64,000 bases of DNA from assembly GCF_014651515.1 (NCBI RefSeq), contig NZ_BMXA01000002.1, positions 903,501 to 967,500 of the forward strand, given 5' to 3'. The notes under the pieces were generated by a model. That model did not search any database and was not told where the DNA came from. It was given only the letters and a program-made list of their open reading frames with translations. Position numbers and translations under genes: made by a program. Source of the DNA: Arenicella chitinivorans. Lineage in GTDB: Bacteria > Pseudomonadota > Gammaproteobacteria > Arenicellales > Arenicellaceae. Positions 31,376-35,546 of the stretch are shown here, piece after piece. Numbering within the stretch: position 1 is the stretch's first letter; every line of letters starts with the position of its first letter.

Positions 31376-31598
31376 TTATCCACTGCTTAGGTGAGTTGTA
31401 CACAGTTGTTAAAATCACGCCCAATTATTGCAGATTAATGAACTTATCTCGCAGTTTTGATCACAAAGGTTTTGTAACATATTGAAATATATCATTTATT
31501 TCAATTGATTAAAATTTAATCAATTGCGCTTATCTGTGATACTACGTGCGCCAGTCCAAGGTTGTTCACAAAGTTATCCACAGTTTTTGTGGATAACT
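31376..31598. other. AT-rich intergenic region with a cluster of DnaA-box-like sites
   Basis: The 558-nt stretch 31337-31894 holds no gene. DnaA boxes (consensus TTATNCACA) appear at 31574-31582 and, inverted, at 31588-31596 (both perfect TTATCCACA). One-mismatch sites lie at 31376-31384, 31396-31404 and 31562-31570. The two perfect boxes form an 11-bp perfect dyad (31572-31598, 5-nt centre). Between the groups, 31461-31520 is about 83 percent A+T and contains a perfect dyad. This resembles an origin or DnaA-titration site, but no dnaA, dnaN or mnmG gene is near, and a rough count of G and C on both sides shows no clear strand switch. A lone TATAAT at 31654-31659 could be a -10 for the operon that follows. 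Confidence 0.45.
31502..31526. repeat. Perfect 12-bp inverted repeat in the AT-rich region
   Basis: CAATTGATTAAA (31502-31513) and its exact reverse complement (31515-31526) flank a single central A. The dyad lacks a T-run, so it is not an intrinsic terminator. It may be a protein-binding site or an easily melted element. Confidence 0.85.
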
Positions 31599-31894: not shown

Positions 31895-33067
31895 ATGGGT
31901 GAATCAACCTTTCACTACTTAGACAAAGCACTTTCTCAAGTTCGAGATCTCGGACTGATGCCGGAGAAGGTCGACGAAGCCCCTGTGGTCGCGCTGCTAC
32001 AAAGGTTGACAGATATTGATGAGGCTAAGGTGGTGGCTATCGCACGCACGCTAACTCAAGCGTCAGTGTTTAACGAGATCGTGCGTGAGCAAGTATCTGA
32101 AATGCGCGTCGGTGAGCGCTACGAAAACATTACTGAGTCATTTAATTCGATTCGCGGCGATGCGAAACGGATGGTGGATCAGCTGGAAGATGGCAAGGTG
32201 GATACGTTTGAGCGCATCAATAATGTCTGGATGAAAGTGACCCGCGGCGACATTGCGTCACGTTTTGACGACATTAAAGAAACGTATTTGGAAGTCGCCG
32301 AAGATTCACGTGAGCAGATCGAGCGTGAACAGATCATCCTTGAGGCCTACCAGGACTTTCGCGGCGCGATTAAGCAGTCCGAAATCTTCGCGCTGGATGT
32401 ACTGAAGCAAGCTGAAGCAATATGGAACACAGCTAAGGGCGCATTGGAACAGGCGAATACCACGGTTGAAAATTACGCTGGAGACGATATGACTGAGCGA
32501 GCCAAACTTGAATTGGCGCGTGATGAACGTATGCGTGACTTTCAGGATGCGGAAGATCGCTATCAGGTCGCTAAAGATATTTCTGATAATCTAACCGTGA
32601 GCTACAACACGTCTGAAGTCATTATGGCACGTCTCATGCAGACCAATAGCGCCAAACAACGTGTTTATAAGCAAGCCATCACGTTCTTCGGTACCAATGA
32701 ATCAGTACTGACCGCGTTAACGGCATCGTTTACCGGTCTGTTTGGTCTGCATGAGAGCACTCAGACCTTAGAAGCCATGAAAGAGGGCGTTTCCAAGAGT
32801 CTAGAAGACTTGGCAGATATCGGCGGTAAAGTGCAGGAAGCCGCCGTTCGTGCCGGGTATGGACCAACAATTCGCGCCGACGCTGTTAAAAAACTGGTTG
32901 ATTCGGTCGTTAATTTTCAGGAACGCTCACGTGAGATCATTGATGAGATGCGTGTTCTTTCGACCAAGAATGCGGAAGAAATTCGAGATTCGGTTGAGGA
33001 TGGCAAGCAGCGCATGGCGAAAATAATTCAGCGTGGTGGCTCATTACCACTGGCACACAAATTTTAA
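31895..33067 (+). CDS. Conserved helical cytoplasmic protein, first gene of a three-gene operon
   Basis: A 390-residue almost wholly helical, acidic protein. I see no signal peptide and no TM helix, and coiled-coil propensity is high across about 95-260 (Glu/Gln/Lys-rich heptads). A mildly hydrophobic stretch with Phe-Thr-Gly-Leu-Phe-Gly-Leu lies at about 278-285. Similar proteins are sometimes annotated as cell surface protein in gammaproteobacteria, but the sequence gives no export signal. ATG 31895 is preceded by GGAGAG, so the longer open frame from 31829 is rejected. The next gene starts 27 nt downstream. Function is not recognised; a structural partner of the two proteins encoded behind it is the reasonable guess. 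Confidence 0.75.
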   Translation: MGESTFHYLDKALSQVRDLGLMPEKVDEAPVVALLQRLTDIDEAKVVAIARTLTQASVFNEIVREQVSEMRVGERYENITESFNSIRGDAKRMVDQLEDGKVDTFERINNVWMKVTRGDIASRFDDIKETYLEVAEDSREQIEREQIILEAYQDFRGAIKQSEIFALDVLKQAEAIWNTAKGALEQANTTVENYAGDDMTERAKLELARDERMRDFQDAEDRYQVAKDISDNLTVSYNTSEVIMARLMQTNSAKQRVYKQAITFFGTNESVLTALTASFTGLFGLHESTQTLEAMKEGVSKSLEDLADIGGKVQEAAVRAGYGPTIRADAVKKLVDSVVNFQERSREIIDEMRVLSTKNAEEIRDSVEDGKQRMAKIIQRGGSLPLAHKF

Positions 33068-33094
33068 TTTATCGCCGACATAGGTTATTTGATT

Positions 33095-34003
33095 ATGGCT
33101 GAAAAGCACGCCGCGGCACCATTGGAGGACATTATGGTGGCCATGGACGTGGTGGACAATCTGCGCCACCAACAGACCTTGGTTGACCGAGAACTTGATG
33201 TTGAATCGCGGCGCGAACGATTACTTGAGCGGTTGCGTACTATGTATGCCGCGCAAGGAATTGAGGTGCCGGATCATGTGTTGCAGGAGGGGATTGCCGC
33301 GCTCGAAGAAGAGCGCTTTAAATATGAACCAGTTCCCAGTAGTTGGCGAACCAAACTGGCGCATATTTGGATCAGTCGTGGTCGCTGGGGTAAGCCGGTA
33401 GGGTTTCTAGCTGTGGTTGGCGCGGTGTTCTACAGCGTTTATTTCGTGACCGACGTGTTGCCAGAGCGCAAGATGCTGGTCGGCTTGCCAACTCAGATTG
33501 AGCGGGTTGTCACTGAGATCAATCAAACAGCAAAAGACTCGACGGTGGCTTCTGATGCGCAGACGCTGGCCAGCAATGCAATGCGAGCGATTGACTCAGG
33601 TAATACCGACATCGCGCAGTCGATCTTGTCGAATCTCCAAGATCTGGAAGCGAAGTTGAAGCGCAGCTATGACATCCGAGTTGTGGCGCGACAGAATCAA
33701 AACTCTGGAATCTGGCGTCGACCGCCGAATAACGCCAAAGGGCGTAATTACTATTTGATTGTGGAAGCGATTGGCACTGACAAGCAGCCGGTGGAACTGC
33801 TGATTTTTAATCAAGAAAACAATCAGGCTAAGCGCACTAAAGTCTGGGGGCTGCGGGTCGACGAGGCAACATTCATGGCCGTTGCCGCGGACAAAAAAGA
33901 CGACGGTATCATTCAAAATAATATTGTGGGGCGTAAACCGGTCGGGGTTCTGGAGCCTGAGTACCGAATTGCGACCAGCGGCGCAACCATCACGGAGTGG
34001 TAA
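33095..34003 (+). CDS. Single-pass membrane protein, DUF6384-like
   Basis: A 302-residue protein with a cytoplasmic helical N-terminal domain (1-95) including Ile-Met-Val-Ala-Met-Asp-Val-Val-Asp and a charged coiled coil. One TM helix follows at about 101-120, preceded by Arg-Gly-Arg-Trp-Gly-Lys (N-in by the positive-inside rule). A roughly 180-residue extracytoplasmic domain completes it, with a helical half and a beta-rich C-terminal half. I recall the N-terminal pattern from DUF6384, a family without known function. It lies 27 nt after the first gene and 1 nt before the third, so tight coupling suggests one membrane-linked complex. ATG 33095 is used; a TTG two codons earlier is also open. 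Confidence 0.7.
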   Translation: MAEKHAAAPLEDIMVAMDVVDNLRHQQTLVDRELDVESRRERLLERLRTMYAAQGIEVPDHVLQEGIAALEEERFKYEPVPSSWRTKLAHIWISRGRWGKPVGFLAVVGAVFYSVYFVTDVLPERKMLVGLPTQIERVVTEINQTAKDSTVASDAQTLASNAMRAIDSGNTDIAQSILSNLQDLEAKLKRSYDIRVVARQNQNSGIWRRPPNNAKGRNYYLIVEAIGTDKQPVELLIFNQENNQAKRTKVWGLRVDEATFMAVAADKKDDGIIQNNIVGRKPVGVLEPEYRIATSGATITEW

Positions 34004-34004
34004 T

Positions 34005-35498
34005 ATGTGGACGGGTCCCAGAGCACTGAGCTCGATTGATGAGAGCTTGCAATCCATCCGCAACGATGTGGTGCGACTTGACAATGAACTCAAACAGCTA
34101 ACGCATCGACAGGGTGGGTTGCAGCGCCAGCGTGTTCAGTTGCTGAATGACATTGCGGAGGTCAGGCTGTCAGCTCTGGATGTTGGTGAGATAAAGGCAA
34201 ATTTTCGCAGCGCGGATCAACAAGCATTGGATATCTTGTCACAGCGAGACCTGGCCATCACCGACATTGATGCTCGTGTTTCCCAGTGCCACCAGGCGGT
34301 GCAAGCTGCCGAATCACGCCGTCATGATTTGCTCGAGGCAGTGAATAAGAAGTCGCAAGCTTTGGCGGACATTGAGGCGGCTGTTCAATCTGAGTTGCAG
34401 GGTGATTCCGTTTACCAGGCGCAGTTGTCACAGGCTCGTCAAGCTGAGTCGATTGCCCAACAAGCGGCGCACAAAGTGGCGCAGGCACGCACCGATATGG
34501 CCGAAAAAGCCGAACCGTATCAGGCTGATAAGCTTTTTATGTATCTTTGGGAGCGTCATTTCGGTACCCCAGACTACTCGGCAAATTTGTTTGCTCGATT
34601 TATGGATTCTTGGGTTGCGCGTTTGATTGGCTTCGAACCGGCGCGCGTGGATTATTGGAATCTAACTGCGATCCCTGAACGTCTGTTGGCGCATGCAAAT
34701 GGTGTGAAAGAAGCTGCGGAGATTGAGTTTGAGGCGGTCCAGGCGATCGAAAAGCAGCATCTAGACGCCGCTGGAGCAGAACAGGTTGAAGTGCAATTGC
34801 AAGCGTTGCGTACGTCGGTCGATGAACAAGATGATGAAATCGAAACGCTGGAAAGTGACTTAAATGCACTGATCTCGCAGCGTGATGCGTTTGTTACCGG
34901 CGCAGATGAATACATGCAGCGTTGTTTCGCGACACTACGTGATGCGATGGAGCAAGCAGACTTGGCGTCGGTTAACAGTTACGTTCGCGAAACCAGCTCA
35001 TCTGTCGATGATGTGCGATTGGATGAAATTCACCGTGTGGATCGTCAACTGTCTGAGTTGAAAAGTGACCTGGAAGATGTGCGCGCGATGCATGAGCGCC
35101 GCCTAGACAAGCTCAAGGAACTCGAGAAGGTTCGGCGTGACTTCAAAAATTCACGCTTCGATGATGTTCGTTCAGGGTTTGACAATGAAGCGCTGATTGC
35201 AACCGTGTTAGGCCAGTTCATTCAGGGGCTGGTCTCAGGTTCTGATGTCTGGCGTGTCATACAACGTCATCAACGCTATCGAGATATTGGCGCCTCGCCC
35301 GATTTTGGCAGTGGCGGCTTAGGGCAGATTGGCGATATTTTGTCCGATGAGTTGCTGCGTGGAAGCCGGCGTTCTCGTCGCTCTCGGTCCACGTGGCACT
35401 GGCCAAAACCACGTCGTGGTGGTGGCGGATTTAACTTTCCTTCCAGAGGGGGCGGAAGTGGTGATGGCGGCGGATTTACTACCGGTGGTGGTTTTTGA
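34005..35498 (+). CDS. Coiled-coil protein with glycine-rich C-terminal tail, third gene of the operon
   Basis: A 497-residue protein. Two long coiled-coil stretches (about 10-175 and 245-385) flank a middle domain with several Trp and Tyr. No signal peptide or TM helix is visible. The C-terminus changes sharply: an Arg/Ser-rich basic segment is followed by about 30 residues dominated by Gly, with Gly-Gly-Gly-Phe repeats and ending in Gly-Gly-Gly-Phe. Such tails recall those of TPM/YgcG-type proteins, but no TPM domain is present. The ATG at 34005 follows the preceding stop by 1 nt. A bidirectional terminator ends the operon. I do not recognise the protein. Confidence 0.75.
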   Translation: MWTGPRALSSIDESLQSIRNDVVRLDNELKQLTHRQGGLQRQRVQLLNDIAEVRLSALDVGEIKANFRSADQQALDILSQRDLAITDIDARVSQCHQAVQAAESRRHDLLEAVNKKSQALADIEAAVQSELQGDSVYQAQLSQARQAESIAQQAAHKVAQARTDMAEKAEPYQADKLFMYLWERHFGTPDYSANLFARFMDSWVARLIGFEPARVDYWNLTAIPERLLAHANGVKEAAEIEFEAVQAIEKQHLDAAGAEQVEVQLQALRTSVDEQDDEIETLESDLNALISQRDAFVTGADEYMQRCFATLRDAMEQADLASVNSYVRETSSSVDDVRLDEIHRVDRQLSELKSDLEDVRAMHERRLDKLKELEKVRRDFKNSRFDDVRSGFDNEALIATVLGQFIQGLVSGSDVWRVIQRHQRYRDIGASPDFGSGGLGQIGDILSDELLRGSRRSRRSRSTWHWPKPRRGGGGFNFPSRGGGSGDGGGFTTGGGF

Positions 35499-35514: not shown

Positions 35515-35546
35515 AAAAAAAGCCGACCCGTTCGAGTCGGCTTTTT
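35515..35546. terminator. Bidirectional intrinsic terminator
   Basis: AAAAAGCCGAC (35517-35527) pairs with GTCGGCTTTTT (35536-35546) around an 8-nt loop. T-runs exist on both strands, serving the three-gene operon on the plus strand and sodB on the minus strand. Confidence 0.93.

Follow-up and report, generated by a model that had tools for sequence, protein, structure and literature searches.

A conserved three-gene DUF6384 unit of Arenicella chitinivorans, shared with megaplasmids and a jumbo phage, and its possible role in cell envelope protection

A stretch of 64,000 nucleotides of the Arenicella chitinivorans chromosome (NCBI RefSeq assembly GCF_014651515.1, contig NZ_BMXA01000002.1, positions 903,501 to 967,500; hereafter the window, by which we mean the whole stretch analysed) carries between positions 31,895 and 35,498 a set of three genes which an initial annotation, made from the sequence alone, had taken for an unrecognised, membrane-linked coiled-coil operon. 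The genes and their products, referred to below by number (gene 1, gene 2 and gene 3; together, the triad), and the features associated with them are as follows:

31895-33067, + strand: gene 1, open reading frame (ORF) of 390 amino acids (aa)
33095-34003, + strand: gene 2, ORF of 302 aa, DUF6384 (PF19911)
33395-33460, + strand: predicted transmembrane helix of gene 2, residues ~101-122, from hydropathy and an AlphaFold2 (AF2) model
33662-34000, + strand: predicted extracytoplasmic beta domain of gene 2, residues ~190-302, from the predicted local distance difference test (pLDDT) of the AF2 model and from the alignment
34005-35498, + strand: gene 3, ORF of 497 aa, coiled coil
35400-35495, + strand: glycine-rich C-terminal tail of gene 3 with TGGGF end, from the alignment
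35515-35546, + strand: terminator-like hairpin 3' of gene 3, from folding against shuffled sequences

All three genes are read head to tail from the + strand, with 27 nt between genes 1 and 2 and 1 nt between genes 2 and 3, as the tight packing first annotated would have it. The terminator placed downstream by the same annotation also finds support: the hairpin 3' of gene 3 folds with -17.6 kcal/mol (z -2.8), and 3 of 200 shuffled sequences folded equally well. A consensus scan did not have the hairpin at 35515-35546 on its list of sites; in that scan, the real sequence was no richer in promoter-like and terminator-like sites than shuffled sequence.

The initial annotation had named as its test that the three families occur together outside this genome, and they do. 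When genomes were scanned with the DUF6384 alignment, at least 539 encoding relatives came up, and the 80 best of these were retained as loci; they are the closest relatives, and a few of the genes counted in them are cut by contig ends. The order 1-2-3 on one strand was found in 78 of the 80, distributed over six phyla, the two exceptions being a contig that begins at gene 2 (L104) and a locus in which gene 1 is split into two ORFs (L130). Since the best 80 loci are those of the closest relatives, a less biased test was made on 398 evenly drawn Pseudomonadota genomes, two of which carry gene 1 and the same two DUF6384, while neither was found in the other 396. One of the two is A. chitinivorans itself, which leaves a single independent case, and there gene 3 adjoins too. 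The set is therefore rare in this sample and kept together. Among 61 relatives DUF6384 is present in 20, including 16 of the 18 members of the genus (own genome counted). As to the boundaries of the unit, no recurring fourth gene was found among the 125 immediate neighbours of 68 loci, the commonest Pfam family, CoxG, occurring 5 times, and a neighbour on the same strand lies within 150 bp in 14 of 62 cases upstream and in 17 of 63 downstream. With no recurring neighbour and few close flanking genes on the same strand, the unit therefore comprises genes 1, 2 and 3, and the triad is a conserved module with a defined membership.

Gene 2 alone among the three proteins has a helix resembling a membrane span. 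It matches DUF6384 along almost the entire profile (E 5.4e-111, 371 bits for a cut-off of 25; residues 5-302, profile positions 3-308 of 308), a family which Pfam labels as of unknown function; in literature covering few subscription journals, no paper was found under the name DUF6384 and no description was found, by family name, of a fixed partnership with genes 1 and 3. Besides DUF6384, gene 2 has no Pfam match up to E 1, and hence none to XpaC, which presumably has a Pfam model of its own. The span-like segment reaches a 19-residue hydropathy of 1.94 at residues 104-122; over 57 aligned rows the best such window averages 2.13 and exceeds 1.6 in 54 of the 57 (lowest value, 1.17). The charge averages +3.5 on the N-terminal side of the span versus +0.2 on the C-terminal side, which points to an N-terminus that probably faces the cytoplasm and a C-terminal domain that probably lies outside. 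An AlphaFold2 model built from 57 sequences (mean pLDDT 85.5) has helices up to residue 189 followed by a beta domain at residues 190-302, the latter with a pLDDT of 89-96 in each block of ten residues from residue 191. This domain is the region of gene 2 best kept in the alignment of plasmid and phage forms, and the ORF ends with Trp at 75 of the 80 loci and with Trp-Lys at the other 5. These signals agree with the single-pass DUF6384 protein with an extracytoplasmic domain that had been annotated. No fold match to the beta domain was present among the matches listed; a small three-helix segment of gene 2 resembles designed bundles, and a profile search of solved structures gave matches at chance level (best E 0.035). 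Outside the genus the median identity of gene 2 to the window protein is 43.3% (52 rows). The form found on Pseudomonas plasmids is longer, at ~480 aa, the extra length lying between the span and the beta domain.

Gene 1, the best conserved of the three, shows a median identity of 66.9% to the window protein outside the genus (52 rows, range 59.6-81.5) and is 63-75% identical in relatives from other phyla (13 rows). It has no Pfam or NCBIfam match above cut-off and no match in PHROGs, and the matches returned by a profile search of solved structures were at chance level (best E 0.13). Its structure model (pLDDT 72.6, predicted template modelling score 0.65, residues 278-327 below a pLDDT of 50) is almost entirely helical and contains a hairpin of two helices of 88 and 81 residues, whose tip loop (residues 193-198, around YAGDD) is polar. 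The 19-residue hydropathy exceeds 1.6 in none of the 57 aligned rows, with 1.36 as the best window, so that the description of gene 1 as a helical protein free of membrane spans stands. A match to ApoLp-III in 46 of the 57 members was weak (best E 0.0024; 13.8 bits for the window protein, cut-off 36.3) and was set aside as an effect of helix composition.

Gene 3, the least conserved by the same measure (median identity 32.4%, 51 rows), likewise lacks a Pfam or NCBIfam match above cut-off and shows no 19-residue hydropathy above 1.6 in any of 56 rows. Weak matches to SMC, JetC, LmuB and SbcC-like models were read as coiled coil, in keeping with the coiled-coil matches from a profile search of solved structures (best E 0.007). 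The window protein ends with TTGGGF, and the TGGGF end is present in 48 of the 56 aligned rows, in which glycine makes up on average 38% of the last 45 residues; over all 80 loci, it is found in 66 gene 3 ORFs, some of the others being cut by contig ends. This supports the coiled coil with a glycine-rich tail proposed earlier. Most plasmid and phage forms end with SDSF, SDRF, SDSL or TDSF.

The distribution of the triad extends to mobile replicons, a side of the system that the initial annotation was in no position to see. In a tree of gene 1 (57 rows, IQ-TREE, midpoint root), sequences from Desulfobulbaceae-type bacteria, Sulfurovum, Planctomycetes, Nitrospirota and Trueperaceae are nested among proteobacterial ones, and the label Pseudomonadota is forced to change at least five times on well-supported branches. 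This suggests horizontal transfer of the set, with the caveats that mis-binning of contigs might account for individual cases, though hardly for every one, and that the tool itself warns against taking such counts as proof of transfer. DUF6384 is present in nine plasmid records, eight of which have all three genes, namely five from Pseudomonas and one each from Bradyrhizobium, Microvirga and Methylorubrum; on the ninth, a Rhodanobacter plasmid, gene 2 was the only one of the three found. With the phage form of gene 1 as query, 11 plasmid records were retrieved; three of these were additional and are counted on gene 1 alone. A comparison of gene 2 with viral models turned up a 440-aa protein without a name (E 1e-13), which led to the Yersinia jumbo phage phiR1-37. 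There, g190 corresponds to gene 1 (43% identity over 96% of the length, E 4e-104, with a plasmid-type query), g191 is a DUF6384 protein with the C-terminus ITNW, and g192, which ends with SSSDSF, is gene-3-like by position, alignment and tail; the gene 3 profile did not pick up g192 at E 1e-3. Aligned over their full length to the window proteins, g190, g191 and g192 are 39%, 18% and 16% identical, respectively. The three genes (L174 8109-11940) are annotated as hypothetical in the phage record, in which g176, g178 and g196 are marked as structural and g190-g192 bear no such mark, and term searches of phiR1-37 papers found no mention of g190-g192 in the main text of PMC4848604 or PMC13030884. 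The phiR1-37 literature describes a lytic infection and counts the phage among those with deoxyuridine DNA (dU-DNA).

Genes 2 and 3 are also present in the Dolichospermum phage Dfl-JY45, where a plasmid-type gene 1 query found no match, and four more contigs from IMG/VR (L176-L179, ~25-72 kb) carry the set, complete in three and running out in gene 2 in the fourth. In one of them, L176, an integrase lies ~2 kb from the triad, which suggests an integrating element as its vehicle. The viral-contig relatives were found solely with a phage- and plasmid-type alignment; gene 1 and gene 2 of the window, used as single queries, found nothing in viral contigs. The set is thus mobile across phyla, megaplasmids and a jumbo phage, and is apparently useful to very different hosts and mobile elements, a lytic jumbo phage included, with no known role for any of its proteins.

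We propose that the products of the triad work as a three-protein apparatus in the inner membrane, self-contained and spread horizontally. DUF6384 would span this membrane once with its N-terminus inside, as the topology signals support, and its conserved cytoplasmic helices, at residues 10-75, would dock the gene 1 and gene 3 proteins, a step suggested by strict co-inheritance and by the lack of a membrane segment in either of these proteins. The stalk and beta domain of gene 2 would reach into the periplasm to sense or contact the envelope. Under stress, genes 1 and 3 may then assemble at the inner membrane face as a coat or scaffold that stabilises it, which their helical-bundle and coiled-coil nature would allow, and the outcome, by analogy with XpaC-TelA, would be protection of the envelope. 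These elements do not have equal standing. A physical complex of the three proteins is likely and recruitment to the membrane through DUF6384 somewhat less so, if still probable; the role in envelope protection, which draws on analogy, is tentative. As a whole, a membrane-anchored triad complex that protects the envelope in the manner of XpaC-TelA is the best explanation we can offer, and we put it forward with corresponding caution. The "membrane-associated scaffold or stress complex" of the initial annotation accordingly survives in part: the unit is conserved and the topology signals are there, while the complex and its function are what we infer and remain the best reading. A domain of unknown function would thereby become a defined and testable complex with a simple genetic handle, since Methylorubrum extorquens AM1 carries the triad on its megaplasmid, NC_012811.1, at ~558.1-562.1 kb (L023).

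XpaC-TelA operons (TelA, PF05816; lmo1966-1967) resemble the triad in encoding a helical protein of ~390 aa together with a partner; XpaC is membrane-linked. When the model of gene 1 was compared with predicted viral proteins by Foldseek, TelA ranked first (E 8e-4, prob 1.00) in a library where phage TelA proteins occur, and further TelA or tellurite-resistance proteins stood at ranks 8, 20 and 26 (E 0.02, 0.08 and 0.13). This model-based resemblance suggests that gene 1 may work like TelA and ties the triad to the wider puzzle of TelA function. In a Listeria study, the putative XpaC-TelA operon lmo1966-1967 was up by a log2 of ~0.6 (~1.5-fold) with bacteriocin, an lmo1967 mutant showed raised sensitivity to nisin and tellurite, and TelA-XpaC, whose own mechanism is not understood, is presented as protecting against cell-wall-active compounds (PMC12791056).

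The two systems also differ, in that gene 1 lacks a Pfam match to TelA, gene 2 matches DUF6384 alone and the triad has an additional coiled-coil gene, gene 3, with its TGGGF tail. Several observations weigh against the analogy. The TM score of the leading Foldseek match is just 0.37, and SMC, tape-measure and unnamed proteins are among the other matches. Hmmscan of gene 1 gave no match to TelA up to E 1, and TelA is absent from the 25 families listed of the 85 matched by the 57 gene 1 members. Profile-profile comparison of gene 1 with TelA, made with a small set first and then with deeper sets and reversed controls (13 of 39 TelA-type loci were excluded from the deeper TelA set, the chosen ORF failing a phmmer check), gave hhalign P values of 0.065-0.071, which are not significant, with the C-terminal parts collinear; the direct reversed controls were weaker (P 0.29-0.37), yet other reversed pairs reached 0.005 and 2e-5. 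Homology to TelA by sequence was dropped on these grounds, and TelA is retained purely as a fold resemblance of gene 1. Neither TelA nor TerD was found in the A. chitinivorans genome, and in four genomes of the genus (G002, G007, G010 and G013) TelA and the triad coexist, so that the triad is not a simple substitute for TelA. No stress gene recurs beside the triad, and it is not evident why a lytic phage should need a stress system for the long term. In a relative (L131), the ORF beside the TelA gene reads by eye as what we take to be a protein of SPFH/GYF type with a glycine-rich linker.

A further comparison concerns the Ter/StiP stress modules. The triad has StiP as a near neighbour, a few genes away, on the Pseudomonas megaplasmids pMPPla107 and pBASL58, the group on pMPPla107 consisting of a StiP-PELOTA protein, a phosphoesterase and a PTH2-like protein, but this vicinity was seen on two of the seven plasmid regions that had a gene table and were read, and the genome of A. 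chitinivorans has no TerD. The papers listed on TelA with XpaC, SPFH, TerD, toxic anion resistance and envelope stress, and on StiP with TerD, yielded no description of the triad, and no known system in the libraries searched (Pfam, NCBIfam, PADLOC, PHROGs) claims its genes, in agreement with the initial annotation, which had seen no described role for the set.

The main rival is that the triad benefits the mobile elements themselves, as a fitness or exclusion module that guards the membrane of a cell with a megaplasmid or jumbo phage against competing phages, damage from conjugation or membrane damage induced by phages, for instance by shielding it during infection, and whose chromosomal copies have been domesticated. 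The complete triads on Pseudomonas, Bradyrhizobium, Microvirga and Methylorubrum plasmids, the set in phiR1-37, genes 2 and 3 in Dfl-JY45, the integrase near one IMG/VR triad and the forced phylum changes in the gene 1 tree all point in this direction. We nevertheless consider it unlikely, as the triad shows no clear match to models of known anti-phage systems in PADLOC (the coiled-coil models hit by gene 3 reach E 1e-5 at best and a DNA-binding model hit by gene 1 E 0.008), defence models match flanking proteins once each, leaving a defence island unsupported, and in Arenicella the triad occupies a fixed housekeeping neighbourhood. A comparably low probability attaches to the triad being, rather than a variant of TelA, an undescribed class of membrane apparatus with three obligate partners, a helical core, a periplasmic sensor with one membrane pass and a coiled coil with a TGGGF or SDSF-like tail, which would form a dynamic coat or ring at the inner membrane and be exchanged between phyla, megaplasmids and a dU-DNA jumbo phage; if so, its part in phage infection may be to remodel the host membrane or to shield it.

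Much less probable is that the triad is an intracellular relative of the tripartite alpha-pore-forming proteins of ClyA/XaxA/AhlB fold, with gene 1 oligomerising on or in the membrane and genes 2 and 3 serving as anchor and regulator. Like these proteins, the model of gene 1 shows a long helical bundle, and in VIA-align against solved structures it matched XaxA best (Z 14.2 over 275 residues, 4.3 A), followed by YaxA, AhlB, SmhB, MakA and ClyA (Z 11.8). A best Z of ~14 is, however, usual for mostly helical models without a clear match, and identity in these rows was 4-12%. ClyA-type pore formers have a hydrophobic head or tongue that inserts into the membrane, whereas gene 1 has neither such a head nor any strongly hydrophobic segment, down to its polar hairpin tip. 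Toxins, moreover, are not expected to be conserved at ~67% identity, the median level seen for gene 1 outside the genus.

The initial annotation had also given the operon a promoter region of its own with a cluster of DnaA boxes. The boxes exist: a three-box element, CACANNNTTATCCACANNNNNTGTGGATAA, lies at 31567-31596, with inverted boxes at 31574 and 31588 and a degenerate third. Both main boxes are kept at all 14 loci of the same genus, 166-466 bp from gene 1, with one mismatch in the second box at L054 and flanks that visibly differ between species. None of the 58 triad loci outside the genus has an exact DnaA box in the 600 bp that precede gene 1, and the boxes were accordingly rejected as part of the operon or of its promoter. 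An arrangement that agrees with it in all but one of 22 fixed positions occurs in the bioD-uvrB interval of Escherichia coli, the location of DARS1; in the mutH stretch, the location of DARS2, two places have it, though with three and four mismatches. Of 143 gammaproteobacterial genomes, A. chitinivorans among them, 58 have the exact pattern and none has its reversed control. The skew of the window has no minimum at the element and the best match to DnaA is on a different contig, so that a DARS1-type site, separate from the operon, is more likely than oriC. The pattern could offer a simple search for DARS sites across the class, in which some matches may be oriC.

A replication-linked or chromosome-organising coiled-coil system, to which this element within the genus and the weak SMC, JetC, LmuB and SbcC matches of gene 3 might point, is highly improbable: unlike SMC and condensin-like systems, the three proteins show no match to an ATPase domain in Pfam or NCBIfam, and the boxes do not accompany the triad outside the genus. 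Chance adjacency of unrelated genes without a common function merits practically no credence, being refuted by the order and strand kept at 78 of 80 loci in six phyla and also on plasmids.

The surroundings of the triad in the window are those of an ordinary chromosome and include a valyl-type tRNA synthetase, an M17 aminopeptidase, two LptF/LptG proteins, an RDD membrane protein, an Fe/Mn superoxide dismutase, a pyruvate kinase and an IMP dehydrogenase. Two candidate partners from the neighbourhoods of other triads were considered and rejected for now: a CoxG-type cluster that precedes five loci, all from Devosiaceae or an unnamed Rhizobiales, and proteins clustering with BON-LysM, seen at 8 of 90 loci in varying places and on varying strands. 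The latter lie within 5 kb of the triad at L046, L066, L082, L085, L094, L108, L110 and L127. On the plasmid of Bradyrhizobium sp. 195, an IS110-family transposase follows the triad (L021 11689-12750).

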